Positions 1 through 6,945 of a DNA stretch of 64,000 nt are shown piece by piece. The notes below the pieces were generated by a model. That model did no database searches. It was not told the DNA's origin and was given only the letters and a program-made list of their open reading frames with translations. This DNA comes from Luteimonas saliphila (GTDB lineage: Bacteria > Pseudomonadota > Gammaproteobacteria > Xanthomonadales > Xanthomonadaceae): the NCBI RefSeq assembly GCF_016774335.1, contig NZ_JAETWA010000030.1:1-64000 (forward strand), read 5' to 3'. The position numbers and the translations under genes are program-made. Position 1 is the first letter of the stretch; each line of letters starts with the position of its first letter.

Positions 1-452
1 TGGTGATCGTGGACGATGCCACGCACGAACCGGTGGCGATCGAGGTCGAGCGGGCGATCTGTGGAAACGGCGTCAGCCGTGTACTGGATCGGCTTACGCT
101 CAGCCGGGGTCTTCCGAAGGTGATCCGGACCGATAACGGCAAGGAATTCTGCGGCAAGGCGATGGTCGCCTGGGCGCACGAGCGCGGGATCCAGCTCCGC
201 TTGATCGAGCCGGGCAAGCCGAACCAGAACGCCTATGTCGAATCGTTCAACGGCCGGCTGCGCGACGAATGCCTCAACGAGCACCTGTTCACCAGCCTGC
301 TCCACGCACGCACGGTGATCGAAACCTGGCGCCGCGAGTACTGCGAAGAACGACCCAAGAAAGCACTTGGTGGCCTGACGCCAGCCGCCTATGCCAAGCA
401 GCTAGCTGAATCCGCTACAGTGAACCCGGACTCCAGATCAGACCGCTACTGA
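1..452 (+). CDS. IS3-family transposase OrfB, C-terminal part (5' end outside window)
   Basis: C-terminal half of an IS3-type DDE transposase/integrase (rve fold) that catalyses strand transfer of the insertion sequence. The first complete codon in the window is at 3; the reading frame is already open at the window edge, so the true start and the first catalytic Asp lie outside. Visible landmarks are VDDATHEP near the start, RTDNGKEF carrying the second catalytic Asp, and [12 protein letters not shown] carrying the catalytic Glu. The tail [16 protein letters not shown] is usual for the IS407/IS3 groups. The stop is just inside the element's right end. It is convergent with, and overlaps, the tail of the cassette gene on the other strand. 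Confidence 0.93.
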
Positions 453-475
453 AAGCGGGGGGACGTCGAGTCCAC
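1..475 (+). mobile_element. Right end of an IS3-family insertion sequence (partial)
   Basis: The element is recognised from its transposase; only the right end is present. After the transposase stop come about 20 bases including AAAGCGGGGGGACGTCGAG, which resembles a terminal repeat of this family, but the matching left end is outside the window, so the exact boundary (about 465-490) and any target duplication cannot be fixed. It lies at the 3' end of an integron cassette gene on the opposite strand. Confidence 0.65.
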
Positions 476-729
476 TGAGGCGACCAACCATTTGATAAAT
501 AGCTAACGAGGTTCTTTGACCCGTAGAAGTGGATCCTGCCATTTTTGGTAAAAGCCAAGGCAGATTGATCGACTTTGAGCCCGCTCGCGCGCGCCTTGGC
601 CGTCAATTGAGCAAGCAAGTCCGAGTTCCCAGAATCTGTGCCGCTAGTGGAGCGCGCATCAAACACCGCAAAGTTGACCCATCCACCCGATACAGCGCGT
701 TCTCTCAAATGCGCGAGGTTGATCTTCAT
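415..729 (-). CDS. Integron cassette protein of unknown function, 3' end probably altered by the IS
   Basis: Small protein of 104 residues starting [12 protein letters not shown]; a purine-rich GGGGG precedes the ATG at 729. Function is not recognised. The reading frame runs into the IS end: roughly the last 20 residues (after LVSYLSNG) are encoded by IS terminal sequence, so the native C-terminus and its own attC appear lost. It lies directly downstream of an attC on the same strand, as expected for a promoterless cassette gene read from the attI side. Base composition is clearly lower in GC than the chromosome around it, a sign of transfer. An open frame extends 14 codons upstream, but the ATG at 729 has the better ribosome site. 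Confidence 0.6.
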
Positions 730-804
730 GTGTGCCCCCTTTCCTGATTGGTAGAAGTAGGCTAAGACCAAATATTCTCACCGTATGAGACTCAATCCGT
801 AGCC

Positions 805-864
805 GCCTAACGCTTGAGTTAAGCCGTGCCGCGAAGCGGCACCGGCCTGAACGAATTGTTAGGC
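805..864 (-). other. attC recombination site of an integron cassette
   Basis: A 60-bp imperfect palindrome bounded by the 7-bp cores GCCTAAC and GTTAGGC. Inside, GGCCGGTGCCGC pairs with GCGGCACGGCTT around a short TTC apex, leaving an unpaired base on one side as integron attC sites do. The TAA stop of the upstream cassette gene is inside the GCCTAAC core, the classic position. The family hallmark (conserved outer cores, conserved folding rather than sequence) is met. Confidence 0.9.
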
Positions 865-1335
865 AAATGCCTCGGATGTCCCATCGTTGTATATCGCATT
901 TGAAGCGACGAAGTTGCACTTCATGTTCGAAAGATCTGTTGCAAGCATCCATTGATGCTCTGGGATGAACTGATTGAAGGTGAATCCAATTCCTGGGTTG
1001 GGAAGAGGCCTCCCGGGAGTCATGGGGTCGTTGATTGTGACTTGGAGGCGGAATTTAACGTCTCCAAACAAATCGCAAAATTCGATAGATCCCTTTACCG
1101 CTCGTGTCGGCTTCGAGTTTTGCGATAGCGTGTAGAGGCAATCAAACCAGATATGCTCCTCGTAATCACCACGATCAAATCTCTTTTTGGAGATAGATAA
1201 CGCCACTAGCGAGTCTTTGGGTGTATCCGTAGAAGTTGGAATCATGCTGTTTGCAAATTGCTGTGCGCCGCTATTCGCCTCTAGCAAGGCGAGTCGGCGT
1301 TCAACTTCAGTGACCCGCTCTTCTAAAGTGCTCAT
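859..1335 (-). CDS. Integron cassette protein of unknown function
   Basis: 158 residues. The first about 22 residues (MSTLEERVTEVERRLALLE) form an amphipathic heptad pattern, probably a short coiled coil used for oligomerisation; the rest looks beta-rich, without a family I recognise. No signal peptide or membrane segment. Start ATG at 1335 has GAGGGGG about 6 bases upstream, and the stop codon is part of the following attC, so the gene and attC form one cassette. AT-rich relative to the chromosome. First gene after the GTTAGGC core at 1352-1358, hence the cassette nearest the presumed attI side. Function cannot be inferred from the sequence. Confidence 0.75.
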   Translation of the reverse strand: MSTLEERVTEVERRLALLEANSGAQQFANSMIPTSTDTPKDSLVALSISKKRFDRGDYEEHIWFDCLYTLSQNSKPTRAVKGSIEFCDLFGDVKFRLQVTINDPMTPGRPLPNPGIGFTFNQFIPEHQWMLATDLSNMKCNFVASNAIYNDGTSEAFA

Positions 1336-1650
1336 CGCAACCCCCTCATTTGCCTAACACCAAGTAGACCCCACATCCGGGGTTTTTCTGGCCAGATTGT
1401 CGCGCAAAGCGGGGGCAATACGAAATAGCGCCTAGGTACCGCCGTTATGCAGGGCACGCCAGCAGGTCTCCCCGCATCCCCCACCACCGCCGCCCATTCT
1501 CTGGGGAGACTCATCTCGCACCCGCCGCCGGCCCTGCCGGCGCGCAGATCGTTCACGCCACAGGGAAGCGGCGGGGCGGTGCCGTTGGGCTTGCAGGCAC
1601 GCAGGGCGTGCCGGCCCCGGCATCCCACATGGAATGCAAAGGAGAATGCA
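1336..1650. other. Gene-free stretch with an isolated integron core site; no integrase
   Basis: The core GTTAGGC (minus strand, 1352-1358) marks the insertion edge of the first cassette; its surroundings do not fold like an attC, so it may be a decayed attI or half of a truncated attC. CCCCGGATGTGGGG lies just beyond it. A tyrosine-recombinase intI gene would be expected on the plus strand to the right, but the sequence up to 1650 shows none of its motifs. The rest holds only the ribosome site AAGGAG (1638-1643) of the next gene. Confidence 0.5.
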
Positions 1651-2148
1651 GTGAGCCAGGATCTGATCGACCTCACCCTGTCCGAGGCCCAGTTGTCGGC
1701 GGTGGACAATGCCCTGTTCGAGCTGGAAACCCAGCTGTCGGGCCTGATCGCGATGAGCGTGCAGCAGCGGCGCAAGCTGATGCGGATGGGCGACAAGTCC
1801 GAATCGTTCTGCCGGCAAACGCTGAGCGCGCTGGCGCAGAACCCGCAGGTGGTGCCGCCGAGCCTGCAACTGGCCGCCGCGCAGGCGGACCTCGCCACCC
1901 TCGATGCGTTGCGCCCGCGCCTGCAGCGGCTGCAGCGCCTGGCCGAACGCGCGGTGGACAGCGAGACCGCGCTGGGCAGCGACATCATGCGCTGCGCGCT
2001 GGATGGCTATGCGCTGCTGAAGGTGGCCGGCCGCAACCAGGGGATGGAGGGCGTCGGGGCCTCGCCCACCATGGCGACGCGCCGATGCGCCTTTCAGCGG
2101 CGGGCGGACCGTGCGCGTTTTCCGTCGTTGCGTTGCGCAGTCGCGTGA
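1651..2148 (+). CDS. Conserved hypothetical protein, cytoplasmic, helical
   Basis: 165 residues beginning with GTG (MSQDLIDLTLSEAQL) placed 7 bases after AAGGAG. The protein is predicted to be mostly helical and soluble; family not recognised beyond resembling an uncharacterised xanthomonad protein type. The segment GSDIMRCALDGYALLKVAGRN ends the convincing coding part; the last about 35 residues (after GRNQGMEG) are Arg/Ala-rich and overlap the 3' end of the convergent transpeptidase gene by 55 bases, so the C-terminus may have been altered. A decayed second copy of the same gene lies at 7069-7269. Confidence 0.6.
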   Translation: MSQDLIDLTLSEAQLSAVDNALFELETQLSGLIAMSVQQRRKLMRMGDKSESFCRQTLSALAQNPQVVPPSLQLAAAQADLATLDALRPRLQRLQRLAERAVDSETALGSDIMRCALDGYALLKVAGRNQGMEGVGASPTMATRRCAFQRRADRARFPSLRCAVA

Positions 2149-2903
2149 CCTTGCGCGAACTCGGGGAAGGTCTCCGCGATCGGCGCCTCATCCGGCAGGA
2201 TGTAGAACACCCCGCCCCGCTCGAACGTCGGTCGGACGACCCGCTCGTAGAACTCGGGCGAGACGTTGATGCAGCCGTGGGTGACGCGGTTGTCGTCTGG
2301 CGAAGGCGAGGCGAGGCGTTCGGCGCGCTTCTCGGCCGGGACGCCACTTGCGGTCGGGTGGATGGAGACCGCGGAATCGTAGTCCACCCACAGCACGCGC
2401 CCGGCGTCGATCGACGGGCCGTAACCGCCCACGAAGCGACCCGCGGGCGTGGTGCGATCCCGGCCCGGAATCTCGCGAAGCGCGAGGCCGGCGATGCCGG
2501 GCGCGGTCTGATCGCCGATCGCCGAACCGAACAGCCCGGGTGCCGCGCCACGAAGCCGGCCGTTGCCGCCGAACACCAGGATCTGTGCGGCGGCCTTGTC
2601 GATGACCGCGAACGGATAGCCCTGGTTGTCCCTGGCGGCGACCACCCAGCCCGCCAGCTCGATCACCGTGTCGGAGACCTCCTGGCCTCGCGGAAGCTGG
2701 TCGGCGGAGGCGGCCGGTTGCGCGACCGCGTCCTTGGCGCTGGCCACGCCGAGGCTCGCGAACGCCAGCGCCAGCGCCAGCGCGCCACAGACGGCGCGGA
2801 TCGCAGGGTGTGTGCAGGTACGGATGGGAAGGTTCCTTGGAACGAAGACTGATGAAGCGAAGACCGGTTGCGGACCCGGGATCCCGGTGGCCAGCAAGGC
2901 CAC
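2094..2903 (-). CDS. L,D-transpeptidase-like YkuD-domain protein, exported
   Basis: Up to 269 residues. YkuD enzymes cross-link peptidoglycan or attach proteins to it using a catalytic Cys. Here a hydrophobic segment (about residues 36-55) acts as signal or anchor, followed by a variable region and the YkuD core with an IHP histidine (about 182) and THGCINV (208-214), Cys211 being the likely nucleophile. The Arg that usually follows Cys-X in this motif is replaced by Asn, as in some proteobacterial relatives. The start is uncertain: the only in-frame candidates before the signal segment are GTG at 2903 and TTG at 2897, both inside a hairpin. Same strand and just downstream of the Lpp-type lipoprotein gene, suggesting a shared envelope role. 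Confidence 0.75.
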   Translation of the reverse strand: MALLATGIPGPQPVFASSVFVPRNLPIRTCTHPAIRAVCGALALALAFASLGVASAKDAVAQPAASADQLPRGQEVSDTVIELAGWVVAARDNQGYPFAVIDKAAAQILVFGGNGRLRGAAPGLFGSAIGDQTAPGIAGLALREIPGRDRTTPAGRFVGGYGPSIDAGRVLWVDYDSAVSIHPTASGVPAEKRAERLASPSPDDNRVTHGCINVSPEFYERVVRPTFERGGVFYILPDEAPIAETFPEFAQGHATAQRNDGKRARSARR

Positions 2904-2907
2904 CGGG
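2883..2907 (-). repeat. Perfect hairpin between the lipoprotein and transpeptidase genes
   Basis: Ten-base arms CCCGGTGGCC and GGCCACCGGG around a five-base loop. No T-run follows on either strand, so it is not a typical intrinsic terminator; it may stabilise the 3' end of the abundant lipoprotein mRNA or reduce translation of the transpeptidase whose candidate start lies in it. Confidence 0.55.
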
Positions 2908-2948
2908 TCCCGGTTTCAGGTCCTCGGTCGCGAACCGTGCAAGCGCGA

Positions 2949-3218
2949 TCAGCCGCGCGGTACGCGGCGCGGGGCCGTTTCGAGCTGCTGGACGCGGCTT
3001 TCCATCTGGTCCAGGCGCTGGTTGGCCTGCTGTGCGGACTGATTGGCTGATTCTGCGCTCTGGGCCGCACTCTGCACCCGCGTGTCGAGTGTATCGAGGC
3101 GTGAGTTGATGCCCGCGAACTCGTCATCGTAGGTGGCACAGGCGGAAAGACCCACGGTGGCGACGATCGCCACGCCGAGCGTACGCACGATCGCCACATG
3201 TTGTCTGGTCAGAAACAT
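2949..3218 (-). CDS. Lpp/OprI-like small outer-membrane lipoprotein
   Basis: 89 residues. A basic N-terminus and hydrophobic stretch end in the lipobox LSAC with the lipidated Cys at about residue 27. The mature part is a heptad, Ala/Gln-rich helix (SRLDTLDTRVQSAAQSAES and QANQRLDQMESRVQQLE) like the trimeric coiled coil of murein lipoprotein. Family proteins anchor the outer membrane to peptidoglycan through a C-terminal Lys; this one ends RRVPRG with no terminal Lys, so covalent attachment is not obvious. AGGAGG lies 7 bases before the ATG. The L,D-transpeptidase gene follows on the same strand, the enzyme class that attaches Lpp in enterobacteria. Confidence 0.85.
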   Translation of the reverse strand: MFLTRQHVAIVRTLGVAIVATVGLSACATYDDEFAGINSRLDTLDTRVQSAAQSAESANQSAQQANQRLDQMESRVQQLETAPRRVPRG

Positions 3219-3466
3219 TCCAATCCTCCTTCGTCTGGGGAACTGGAATATAGCCGCGTTTTCGTCGGCGCCCCGAGCCGGCTTCAGCTGGGGTTGGAGT
3301 ACGTGGATGGATCGTTAAATCGTGGCAGCCGATGGGACGTTCATTCCGGATCACTGGGTCTGCACTGCAACCCGCAGCACATGGTTGACCATCGCAACTA
3401 TATCCGCCCTCCCCGATCCGCACACAGGACGGCGAAGCTCACCGGCCGTGGCGAGGAGCGCCGCCG

Positions 3467-3586
3467 CTATCGCAGAAATTCCTGCGGCAGCAGTACGAAC
3501 GCGATGAGGATCAGCGCCAGGCACAGCCAGCGCCATGCGCCCATGCCCCGCCAGGCAGCCTTCCATGCGTCGCGCGGCGTGGTCAT
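3467..3586 (-). CDS. 39-residue single-span membrane protein in the iron operon
   Basis: Begins MTTPRDAWKAAWRGMGAWRW and continues with a hydrophobic segment rich in Leu/Ile/Ala (about residues 20-34) before ending QEFLR. Its ATG overlaps the stop codon of the PepSY gene (ATGA), so it is very likely translated by coupling. Positively charged N-terminus suggests N-in, C-out topology. It is the last gene of the Fur-box operon; a role with the PepSY protein in siderophore-iron handling is inference from position only. It is too short for most gene finders. No family recognised. Confidence 0.7.
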   Translation of the reverse strand: MTTPRDAWKAAWRGMGAWRWLCLALILIAFVLLPQEFLR

Positions 3587-4734
3587 GCGACGGCTCTCGA
3601 CTTTGCGGACCGTCGTGCCGCGGCGCGAAGTACGTCCGCCACGCGCAGGCCATAGAGGTACGCGCCGGTCAGGCTGAGCGCGGTCAGCAGCAGCCCGAAC
3701 ACGAACCAGATCACTTGCGTGACGAGGCCACCAAACGTGCCGAAGTGCAGCGGATCGGCCATTTCCGAAATGCGGTGGTGTACGTCGAGTTCGCCGGCGA
3801 TGCGGCGGCCGATGAGGGTGCTGCCGGTCGGGTCGAAGCCGAGCGCATTGGCGCGGTCACGCACCAGCCATGCCTCGGCCTGGCCTTCGATCACCAGGCC
3901 GCGGTCGGAGAGCGCCAGCCGGCGCACCTGCAGGCCCGGCCACTCGTCGTGCGCCTGCGCGATGGCGCGGTCGATCGCGGTGGGTGTGATGGGCTGCGTC
4001 ACTGTCGCTCCCGGGTCCGTCAGTTCCTTCGGCAGCACGTCCGGTTGTCCGCCGGCGCCGCCGCCGAGCGATTCGACCAGGTACCAGCCGCCGGTGGCGG
4101 CGATCAGCGCGATGAACCACAGGCTCCACACGCCGGCCAGCCGGTGCACGTCGCCCCAGAAGCGGCGCTGACGTTCCGGGCGGGGCAACGAGAAGAAACC
4201 GCGCCACCATTTCCTGTAGATCACCAGACTGGTCACCAGCGTCACCAGCAACGCGACGGACAGCGCGGACACGATCGGCACGCCGAACTTCACCGGCATC
4301 ATCAGGTGGCGATGGGTGTTGCGCAGGAAGCGCTGGGCGTTGAACCAGTGTGTGTCCCCGGTCACCGTGCCGCGATAGGGATCGACCCAGACGAAGCGCA
4401 ACCGGCCATCGTCGGTCTCCATGCTGGCCATCGCCGCCGAACGCGGACCCTTGGGCGCGGACAGGCCATTGAGCGTCCAGGCGGGGTAGGCGCGCTGCAC
4501 CGCACCGACCATCGTGCCCAAGCTGGCGTGCTGCGGCCCGGGCGAGACGCGCATCTGCGGATGCAACGCCCAGTCGATCTCGTGCGAGAACACCGCCAGG
4601 GTCCCGGTGAGGCAGACGAAGGCCATCAGCACGCACAGCTTCAGGCCGACCCAGCTGTGCAGGTCGAACCACACGCGCCGCCTGCCCTTCCCGGGCACGG
4701 CGGCGGCGTCTGCGGATGACAGGGCCGGTGGCAT
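3583..4734 (-). CDS. PepSY-associated transmembrane (PiuB-like) protein
   Basis: 383 residues with four clear membrane helices: about residues 28-50 after a basic start (FDLHSWVGLKLCVLM), 155-175, 200-222 and 335-362. The HSWVGLKL, HRHLMMP and DVHRLAGVWS motifs carry the conserved histidines of this family, which is associated with reduction or release of iron from siderophores at the inner membrane. Large periplasmic PepSY-like loops lie between helices 1 and 2 and between 3 and 4. Located 24 bases downstream of the TonB receptor on the same strand, the usual arrangement, and followed with ATGA overlap by a small membrane protein. Expected to be Fur-regulated with the receptor. Confidence 0.88.
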   Translation of the reverse strand: MPPALSSADAAAVPGKGRRRVWFDLHSWVGLKLCVLMAFVCLTGTLAVFSHEIDWALHPQMRVSPGPQHASLGTMVGAVQRAYPAWTLNGLSAPKGPRSAAMASMETDDGRLRFVWVDPYRGTVTGDTHWFNAQRFLRNTHRHLMMPVKFGVPIVSALSVALLVTLVTSLVIYRKWWRGFFSLPRPERQRRFWGDVHRLAGVWSLWFIALIAATGGWYLVESLGGGAGGQPDVLPKELTDPGATVTQPITPTAIDRAIAQAHDEWPGLQVRRLALSDRGLVIEGQAEAWLVRDRANALGFDPTGSTLIGRRIAGELDVHHRISEMADPLHFGTFGGLVTQVIWFVFGLLLTALSLTGAYLYGLRVADVLRAAARRSAKSRAVA

Positions 4735-4758
4735 TCGCTGGCTCGTTGGGCCCGTGGG

Positions 4759-6945
4759 TCAGAAGCGGTAGCGCGCCTGCAGGTACAGCCGCCGCGGCTC
4801 GCCGGGGAAATGGCCGGTGCGTTCGATGAAGCCGCTGGCCGCGTAGACCTTGTCGAACAGGTTCTTGACGTTGGCCTGGAAGGTCCAGTCGCGCCACTGC
4901 GTCTGCCAGCTGGCATCGAAGATGGTGTAGGCCTTGACCGCCTGGCCCTCGAGCGAGACGCGGTCGCCGACATGGTCGACACCGAGGGCGATCGACGAGG
5001 CGATGGCCGGCAGGTCGTAGCGGGTCCAGAGGCCGAGCTTGTGCCGCGGCGCGTTGGCGAAGCGGTCGCTGTCGCCGGTGGTGTTGCCGGCGGCGGCCGG
5101 GTCGCCCTCGAGCACGCGCGCGTCGTTGTAGCCGTAGGCCAGGTTGAGCACCCAGCGCTCGGTGAGATCGGCCAGCAGGTCGAGCTCGAAGCCGTCGCTG
5201 CGCACCAGGCCGAGCGCGGCCAGGTCGTCGACGCCGTCGTTGCCTGCGTCCTCGCCGGTGCCCTGTACCACGTTGCTGCGCTCGATCCGGTACACCGCGG
5301 CGTTGAGCGTGATGCGCCCGCCGGCGAGGCTCGACTTGGCGCCCAGTTCCCACTGGCGGCTGCGCTCGGGATCGAACGGCCCGCCGGCCAGCGGGTTCTG
5401 GCTCCCGGCCGACTGCGGCGAGAAGCCGGTCGCCATGCTGGCGTAGAGGTTGACCGCGTCGGTCGCCTCGAACGTGGTGCCCATGCGCCACGTCAGGTCG
5501 TTGCCGTCGATGGCGGTCCCGGCGACGCGATCCTTGTCTTCGAAACGGTCCCAGCGCAGGCCGGCGAGCAGATGCCAGCGGCCCAGGTCCATCTGGTCCT
5601 GCAGGTAGAGGCCATCCTGGCGGCTGCGGGTGCGGGTGGCGGGTCGGAACGGCAGCGTGTCGAGTCCGTAATCGGCGCCGCCGCTGAGCCCGTACACCGG
5701 GTCGAACAGGTCCAGCCCCGGCACCGGGCCGCCGCGCTCCACGCCCCCGGCGGTGCGGCCGATGAAGTAGGCGTCGAGTTGCGACATCTCGCCGCCGAAC
5801 AGCAGGGTGTGGGCGATGCTGCCGGTGGTGATGTCGAGGGCGGCGTGGCCTGCGGTCGCCAGTCCTTCCACGTCGCGTGCCTGGTCGCGGAACTCGCGCC
5901 ACACCGTGCGCCCGTCGGCGGCGATGCCGCGCGACTCGTGGTACTGCTGGCGCTCGGCGTTCTCGAACCAGCGCACGGCGAGGCTGACATCCAGGGCATC
6001 GGTCGGTGCCGCGGTGTAGCGGGCCAGGCCGATGCGGGCGTCGAGTTCGAGGTAGTCGGTGGGCTCGTTGGTGTTCCACTCGCGGTCGGTCAGGAACACG
6101 CCGTCGTCGCTGGCCGGCACGCCGCGCAGCCGGTTGGCGTCGAGGTCCTGCTGCAGGTCGGTGTACTGCAGCAGCAGTTCACCAGTGTCGCCGACATCGA
6201 AGGCGAAACCGACGTCGCCGATCAGGCTGTCCTGCGAGGTGTTGTTGCGGAAACCCTGCTCGTGGTCGACGTGCACGCCGACGCGATAGCGCACCCGCCC
6301 CGCTGCATCCAGCGGACCGGAGGCCTCGAGCGAGGCTGCGCCGTAATCGAAATTGCCGGCCTCCAGGCGCAGCTGGCGCTCGGGCAGCGCGGTCGGTTTC
6401 CTGGTGGCGTAGTTGATGACGCCGCCAGGATCGCCGGAGCCGTACGCCGCACCGGCCGGCCCCTTGAGCACCTCGACGCGCTCGATGTTGAACAGCTGCG
6501 GCACCGAGAAGCCCGCGTAGGGGTCGCCGCGCAGGCCGTCGTACAGCACGTTCTCCTGACGGAAGCCGCGCAGGACCACGCCGGCGTAGCTGAAGAAGCT
6601 GATGCCGCTGATGTTGCGGTAGAGGTCGGTCACCTGGTGCGCGCCCTGGTCGTCGATCAGGTCGCGGTTGATCACCTGCACCGACTGCGGCACCAGTTCC
6701 AGCGGGGTATCGGTACGGGTCGCCAGGCTGCTGTCCTCGACCCTATACAACCGTTGCGCCCGTCCCACGACGCGCACGGCATCCAGGTCGGTGGCATCCG
6801 AGTCCTCGGAGGGAGCCTCCGTGCTCGACGCGGCGCCAGGCGCGTCCCGTTGCTGGGCAGCCACGCCGAACGGCGCTAACACCAGTGCCGCAACGATGGA
6901 AAGGGTGAGGTGCGAACGACGGGTCATCACTGCGCCAGTAACCAT
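4759..6945 (-). CDS. TonB-dependent siderophore receptor
   Basis: 728 residues. A signal peptide (about residues 7-30, cut after GVAA) precedes a TonB-box-like DLDAVRVVG, the plug domain (LVPQSVQVINRDLIDDQGAH, then VLKGPAGAAYGSGDPGG) and a 22-strand beta barrel ending in the aromatic LQARYRF needed for outer-membrane assembly. Members take up ferric siderophores using TonB energy; the substrate cannot be read from sequence, but similarity in style is to FhuA/FpvA-type receptors. A Fur-box-like sequence is 12 bases upstream of this ATG. An internal ATG at 6927 (MTRRSHLTLS) is an equally plausible start and gives a more typical signal peptide and a longer leader. Confidence 0.93.
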   Translation of the reverse strand: MVTGAVMTRRSHLTLSIVAALVLAPFGVAAQQRDAPGAASSTEAPSEDSDATDLDAVRVVGRAQRLYRVEDSSLATRTDTPLELVPQSVQVINRDLIDDQGAHQVTDLYRNISGISFFSYAGVVLRGFRQENVLYDGLRGDPYAGFSVPQLFNIERVEVLKGPAGAAYGSGDPGGVINYATRKPTALPERQLRLEAGNFDYGAASLEASGPLDAAGRVRYRVGVHVDHEQGFRNNTSQDSLIGDVGFAFDVGDTGELLLQYTDLQQDLDANRLRGVPASDDGVFLTDREWNTNEPTDYLELDARIGLARYTAAPTDALDVSLAVRWFENAERQQYHESRGIAADGRTVWREFRDQARDVEGLATAGHAALDITTGSIAHTLLFGGEMSQLDAYFIGRTAGGVERGGPVPGLDLFDPVYGLSGGADYGLDTLPFRPATRTRSRQDGLYLQDQMDLGRWHLLAGLRWDRFEDKDRVAGTAIDGNDLTWRMGTTFEATDAVNLYASMATGFSPQSAGSQNPLAGGPFDPERSRQWELGAKSSLAGGRITLNAAVYRIERSNVVQGTGEDAGNDGVDDLAALGLVRSDGFELDLLADLTERWVLNLAYGYNDARVLEGDPAAAGNTTGDSDRFANAPRHKLGLWTRYDLPAIASSIALGVDHVGDRVSLEGQAVKAYTIFDASWQTQWRDWTFQANVKNLFDKVYAASGFIERTGHFPGEPRRLYLQARYRF

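Follow-up and report, generated by a model that had tools for sequence, protein, structure and literature searches.

Integrons are described as one platform, composed of intI, attI and Pc, with one array of cassettes, and arrays without an integrase are usually read as debris or as off-target insertions. The genome studied here resembles the sedentary chromosomal integrons of Xanthomonadaceae in its attC type, its full-length IntI, its cassettes in a single orientation and the location of attI between divergent intI and array, and differs from them in having further attI heads, free of intI, spread over the genome. The arrays that follow these heads, termed here satellite arrays, are similar to CALINs (attC clusters lacking an integron-integrase) in that an attC array is found without a nearby intI. 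In Xanthomonas, CALINs occupy seven conserved loci and are contrasted with scattered attG insertion (PMC12444791, 2025). The available part of that report mentions no attI at them, whereas satellite arrays begin with a recognisable attI, and an attI at the array head would explain conserved array positions. Like a satellite site, attG receives cassettes outside the integron platform; it is described as divergent from classical att sites in the available part of PMC12901181, whereas the satellite site copies the sequence of attI. Another case of attI sequence outside its usual place is that of the delta-attI cassettes in class 1 and class 2 integrons (PMC12901181). As far as that source describes them, they have attI fragments in place of attC downstream of a cassette gene, whereas the satellite attI lies in host DNA upstream of the first cassette. 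A search of the openly licensed literature for multiple, duplicated or attI-like sites returned nothing equivalent.

The cassette array of the window

The window covers the opening 64 kb of a 181-kb contig (C28) from a 4.65-Mb genome assembled in 48 contigs. Relatives of this genome are Luteimonas: L. rhizosphaericola (G020), L. kalidii (G065), L. wenzhouensis (G027) and Luteimonas sp. J29 (G002). The features of the locus are as follows.

1–468, plus strand: contig edge, occupied by the right part of an IS3-family element, with the 3' end of the transposase at 3–452
469–735, minus strand: gene 2, the second gene of the array; ATG at 735, 89 codons, truncated at the 3' end by the IS, of no known family
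805–864, minus strand: attC of the gene 1 cassette; exact GCCTAAC...GTTAGGC pair; 84.0 bits, E = 2.6e-21, with a covariance model built from 22 attCs, this one included; fold z = -4.1
859–1335, minus strand: gene 1, the first cassette after attI; 158 amino acid residues, no known family
1348–1354, minus strand: GTTAGGC core, junction of the first cassette with attI; G020 has a different cassette at the same position
1349–1398, plus strand: putative satellite attI without intI, head of the array; aligns with intI-linked attI; 50.1 bits, E = 1.4e-10, with model R2, a score that is not independent because the site is one of the 83 training rows
1369–1382, no strand: CCCC-N6-GGGG dyad beside the core, found in linked and unlinked attI
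1651–2148, plus strand: host gene on the side where intI normally sits; flank 87% identical in G020

Read on the minus strand from position 1354 downward, the order is GTTAGGC core, gene 1, attC of gene 1, gene 2 and the IS. The original prediction placed a xanthomonad-type attC at 805–864, with the stop of the upstream gene in its core. Both statements were borne out, the first by the covariance model and by the predicted fold of the single strand (-16.6 kcal/mol, with 0 of 200 shuffles as good), the second by the TAA of gene 1, which falls within GCCTAAC. With R'' and R' cores and a stem structure, the site has the sequence features expected of an integron gene cassette. Over the whole genome, an attC pattern found 24 sites versus none for its reversed control, and the covariance model gave 94 matches at E ≤ 1e-4, a count in which some places may appear on both strands. 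The prediction of two cassette genes in the same orientation also stands (both are on the minus strand, in a block of 50% GC compared with 69% for the window), except that the reported 415–468 part of gene 2 is IS sequence: the IS fills 1–468, and three plasmid homologues of gene 2 align only as far as residues 89–91, residue 89 ending at position 469. The two of these homologues that were looked at are 92 residues long.

Neither protein had been assigned to a recognised family, and profile searches agreed, with one Pfam match far under cut-off and none in NCBIfam, PADLOC or PHROGs. Structure models made without alignments were of low quality for both proteins, with a mean pLDDT of 41 each. 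On plasmids, gene 1 has a single homologue (Variovorax, 56% identity over 77%) and gene 2 the three mentioned above (60–63%), all hypothetical. The gene 1 homologue (L241, CP063168.1) lies about 1.4 kb from a gene annotated as dihydroxy-acid dehydratase. No attC was found in three of the plasmid stretches (one for gene 1, two for gene 2) with the Luteimonas-trained model, which other attC types may escape. An Rfam search of positions 1–5000 gave one sub-threshold match. The interest of the locus lies in its attI site rather than in the two proteins.

Contig edge and the probable continuation of the array

The IS transposase matches Pfam rve_3 above cut-off (98.3 bits) and the NCBIfam IS3 transposase model with E = 5.6e-36, the latter under the whole-protein cut-off because only the end of the transposase is present. 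Positions 1–468 are identical, over all 468 bases, with the start of contig C29; the IS is repeated in the genome, and the assembly of C28 broke inside it, leaving the window at the left edge of the contig. The left part of the same IS ends three other contigs, C30, C22 and C6. Contig C30 carries three attCs in an orientation compatible with the window array, and beyond them four short stretches (58–306 bp, 78–84% identity) match G020 to the left of its corresponding array, in the expected direction. The attC orientation and the short flank matches suggest that C30, the IS and C28 likely form one array. A CALIN has at least two attCs without a nearby intI; one attC is in the window and three are on C30, across this likely junction.

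An attI copy without an integrase gene

The original prediction stated that no integrase was present. This holds for the 64-kb window, where tblastn at E up to 1 found no intI, and since the contig breaks inside a repeated IS the absence says little. It does not hold for the genome, which has a single, full-length intI with its own array on another contig (C44:2310–3248, 481 bits against a cut-off of 265). This intI stands beside a gene that, from its sequence, we take to be Lrp/AsnC-like. In Xanthomonas, by contrast, intI is placed next to ilvD in the available part of PMC12444791.

The GTTAGGC core upstream of gene 1 had also been noticed correctly, at 1348–1354; it is not half of an attC and belongs instead to an attI copy. 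Positions 1349–1398 match the attI of the order, the core of which reads CCTAACRCYWAGTAGACCCC-N5/6-GGGG. Where the attI adjoining intI on C44 reads CCTAACGCCTAGTAGACCCCAAAAGCGGGG, positions 1353–1382 of the window read CCTAACACCAAGTAGACCCCACATCCGGGG, and the host gene then follows instead of intI. The match with intI-linked attI of the order thus runs from core to dyad, the first cassette is joined at the core, and its attC has the same orientation. Core and dyad are all that is kept here: no GTCAA box and no distal block were seen at their usual spacing. The site lacks the adjoining intI of a complete integron, the gene being on the other contig, and it aligns with attI, unlike an attG target.

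Contigs C16 and C24 have the same layout as the window head, which brings the attI heads of this genome to four including that of C44. With the 83-head model, C16 and C44 score 65 bits each, the window 50 and C24 33, all four being in the training set. Since the upstream core belongs to an attI copy, the block at 469–1398 would be the head of a satellite array, an attI without its own integrase followed by cassettes. These cassettes would have been inserted in trans by the single IntI encoded on C44, through attI x attC recombination at the GTTAGGC core. We regard this reading, drawn from sequence comparison, as probable.

Three details of the surroundings were recorded. Positions 1521–1660, before the host gene, are near-identical to G020 though the bases between there and attI have diverged, and they match no Rfam family above threshold. 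An open reading frame adjoining the locus (2094–2903) has a weak match, under cut-off, to YkuD (L,D-transpeptidase). Short GCCGACC/GCCGATC tandem repeats directly adjoin the attI module of C24 (L045:2235–2330).

Dispersed attI sites in Luteimonas

A survey of 52 Luteimonas genomes found 51 attI sites, 18 of them linked to intI and 33 unlinked, the latter in 24 genomes. These counts are lower bounds because the survey filters were strict; two further heads in G075 surfaced only in a direct search of those stretches. An intI was found in 41 of the 52 genomes, including 22 of the 24 with unlinked sites. For 28 of the 33 unlinked sites, an attC of the expected strand follows on the expected side, no more than about 2.3 kb away (two are weak matches), and four of the remaining five have less than 130 bp of contig there. 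No piece of intI was found beside 32 of the 33. The exception, G030, has a broken piece, further attCs on the opposite side at a distance of about 5 kb, and no intact intI among our matches.

The dispersed layout is also seen within single large contigs, where unlinked sites lie 0.17 to more than 1 Mb from intI. On the 2.84-Mb contig C2 of G074, intI and its attI are at 1185792 and unlinked sites at 1980227 and 2430864; on the complete chromosome of L. granuli (G015, CP042218), intI at 1598420 and the unlinked site at 1771705 are 173 kb apart. The 3.3-Mb contig C1 of G075 has four arrays, each headed by an attI match, the three unlinked ones scoring 33.8, 21.3 and 16.2 bits, two of which are weak. 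Single-contig genomes from other genera of the family (G314, G156 and G316) show the same layout, as does G111, with an intI piece beside its site. A possible further head in G071 (12.9 bits) was left out of all counts. In G028 (C6:81487–82409), intI appears as two adjacent matched pieces beside its attI, suggesting a broken frame, and one stretch of G011 (L234, C7) has intI without an attI-model match upstream, an attI with an array being on another contig.

Distribution across Lysobacterales

Scanning a GTDB species collection with the exact attI pattern gave 91 matching stretches, 80 of which were listed. Among these 80 listed matches, 75 are from Lysobacterales, four from metagenome-assembled genomes (MAGs) with broader names and one from a MAG labelled Burkholderiales. 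Lysobacterales names among the listed matches are Luteimonas, Lysobacter, Pseudoxanthomonas, Thermomonas, Rhodanobacter, Dyella, Frateuria, Fulvimonas, Oleiagrimonas, Rudaea and unnamed family members; genera other than Luteimonas and Oleiagrimonas are presumably placed in this order. The core-to-dyad alignment was made for a set of 13 heads and for one of 83 heads from the order.

Together with the four heads of this genome, the listed matches make 84 heads. An intI match stands at the usual place and distance in 40 of them, two of which (Dyella) are only 29-residue fragments. The other 44 have no intI match, five of these having less than 300 bp on that side. An attC match is found on the cassette side of 33 of the 44 unlinked heads (two weak), and the 11 without one have 3–696 bp available there, with one sub-threshold match. 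In a sample of 297 genomes of the family, the site was detected at E ≤ 1e-4 in 61, with two or more sites in 21, and intI in 202; in two of the 21 multi-site genomes (G143 and G146) both sites adjoin an intI. Among 11 hand-picked unlinked sites at the family level, ten have attC on the cassette side only (one weak); at G111, which is among the 11, a short piece of intI adjoins the site. The remaining site (G088, L251) is an attI-model match within a long array, attCs lying to either side of it.

Conserved boxes and resemblance to the resident attI

Several short boxes beyond the core are found in heads with and without intI, although the boxes were picked from the same sequences, so that shuffled controls overstate their strength. 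GTCAA occurs at +55 to +100 in 37/40 linked and 33/41 unlinked heads (shuffled, 1.7 and 1.5), a GAGTAT-type box in 26/40 and 24/43 (0.5 and 0.4), and a distal TTATC-type box in 26/39 and 22/40 (4.2 and 4.9). Two others are weaker in unlinked heads, namely an ATCA box (25/39 linked versus 14/41 unlinked; shuffled, 2.2 and 2.3) and a distal GATAA-type box (25/39 versus 16/40; 5.2 and 4.7). The best position of a repeat similar to the dyad region falls at +170 to +179 in 20/39 linked and 21/40 unlinked heads. The distal block of linked heads overlaps the start of intI. We infer a role in binding or as promoters for the conserved outer boxes. By analogy they may be similar to the extra IntI-binding repeats of attI1, which favour attI x attC recombination according to the available part of PMC8946536.

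Unlinked cores tend to resemble the attI linked to intI in their own genome. Across 19 genomes and 28 sites, the alignment score per base was 0.734 to the own linked attI versus 0.601 to others, a difference not reached in any of 20,000 label permutations. The own linked core was best or tied for 13 of the 28 sites (1.5 expected), and 15 matched the attI of another genome better. Phylogeny confounds this comparison, part of the resemblance being due to common descent. An anchored within-genome comparison, which did not include C28, covered four Pseudoxanthomonas genomes with an orthologous unlinked site. At positions 14–38 they score 1.0, 1.0, 1.0 and 0.88 to their own linked attI and 0.71–0.83 to each other, whereas in the flank at 320–700 the relation is reversed (0.59–0.62 to own, 0.80–0.89 to each other). 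In P. japonensis, unlinked and own linked attI are the same at 70 of the 74 bases printed. Rhodanobacter, Dyella and Luteimonas give a mixed picture, and one Rhodanobacter pair (L115 and L152) is opposite, with 0.83 and 0.92 to own and 0.96 to each other. These few cases hint that tracts of limited length have been converted to the sequence of the intI-linked attI. It has also been proposed that attI and its integrase co-evolve (PMC8946536, in the part available).

Conserved positions and different cassettes

Comparing the non-cassette sides of the 84 heads revealed 15 pairs of orthologous unlinked sites, in Pseudoxanthomonas, Rhodanobacter, Dyella, Lysobacter and Luteimonas, with flanks 77–95% identical over 0.3–4.7 kb. 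Three pairs involve L084, the cassette side of which is too short, leaving 12 comparable. On the cassette side, 11 of these 12 have nothing or only attC-sized matches in common (up to 63 bp among those printed), with some of the compared sides short (L136, 361 bp; L117, 437 bp; L101 and L132, about 516 bp), and one Lysobacter pair has 374 bp in common. This genome contributes the pairs C28 with G020, C16 with J29 and C24 with G075. The cassette at the G020 site is different from, and longer than, the gene 1 cassette of the window; C24 and G075 are 89–91% identical over a 4.4-kb flank and likewise differ on the cassette side.

At the sequence level, then, attI copies, correctly oriented attC arrays, one intI per genome as a rule and conserved positions with different cassettes are seen, and the cores tend to resemble the attI of their own genome. 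From this we infer that IntI uses the satellite copies, or did so recently.

Origin and significance of the proposed satellite sites

Another explanation is that these are decayed integrons, each unlinked attI having lost its own intI by deletion and its array being a fossil that takes up no cassettes. Traces of such loss exist. What remains of intI at two Dyella heads (L088 and L139) is a 29-residue match to its start, and broken intI-start pieces adjoin a single site of the 33 unlinked ones in Luteimonas (G030, L216:5566–5815) and one of the 11 family-level sites (G111, L250:6351–6446), so that these last two are decayed integrons. The intI-like start ATGNNTTA is still present in 9/40 unlinked heads, versus 24/39 linked ones. 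Furthermore, the unlinked site of G068 adjoins a gene which in G000 is the neighbour of intI (80% over 1.5 kb), and the flank of G028 C22 is about 70% identical to flanks downstream of intI in Pseudoxanthomonas; as these two sites sit where intI sits in relatives, loss or relocation of intI is one origin of the copies. However, among 64 unlinked flanks (some loci counted twice), compared with 32 linked ones, only these two occupy a position held by intI elsewhere. Fossil arrays also fit poorly with the different cassettes at most orthologous unlinked sites and with the persistence of non-coding boxes in unlinked heads far above shuffled levels, as with GTCAA. As a general account, decay therefore appears unlikely.

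Chance insertion of cassettes at a generic attG site, as in CALINs arising from off-target integrase activity, is much less probable still. Such insertion is documented for other integrases (PMC12444791 and PMC12901181, in the parts available), and a host gene does adjoin the window site. Against it stand the described divergence of attG from att sites, the match of the non-cassette-derived side to attI over about 30–50 bp, dyad included, in most of the 33 unlinked Luteimonas sites, and the conserved loci of unlinked sites. Finally, an assembly artefact, in which the window head truly lies beside intI and was misjoined through IS or attC repeats, could be suspected in a 48-contig genome where many contigs end in attC or IS, but is hardly credible given that attI and host gene are contiguous both in the window and in G020 and that single-contig genomes have the same layout.

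Under the preferred reading, that of attI copies loaded in trans, a single integrase may work for a number of arrays placed around the chromosome. In its widest form, the Lysobacterales integron would be a distributed system, in which one IntI acts on several dispersed attI sites. These would keep their chromosomal places from one related species to the next and each exchange its own cassettes, and either selection or tract-limited conversion by the intI-linked attI would keep them matched to the resident integrase; we judge the case for this wider proposal to be evenly balanced. If attI itself has multiplied, each cell would offer several first positions for cassette landing, and the conserved positions of CALINs would be simply explained. 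Because many unlinked copies lack the intI start yet keep the boxes, they would be natural attI variants that separate the needs of recombination from those of intI expression. Searches by intI and attC alone would overlook satellite attI sites.

Cassettes in common between arrays of one genome

The window array has no cassette stretch of at least 150 bp in common with other arrays of its genome, and among 21 other same-genome array pairs across the order, cassette-side matches of that length were found in two. A cassette of about 390 bp does recur within this genome, at 84–95% identity, in the intI-linked array, on C24, on C17 (which overlaps C16) and on C6. With its 112-nt attC, it is the first cassette of both the C44 head and the C24 head (L046:1690–2081; L045:583–1034 and 1662–2054).
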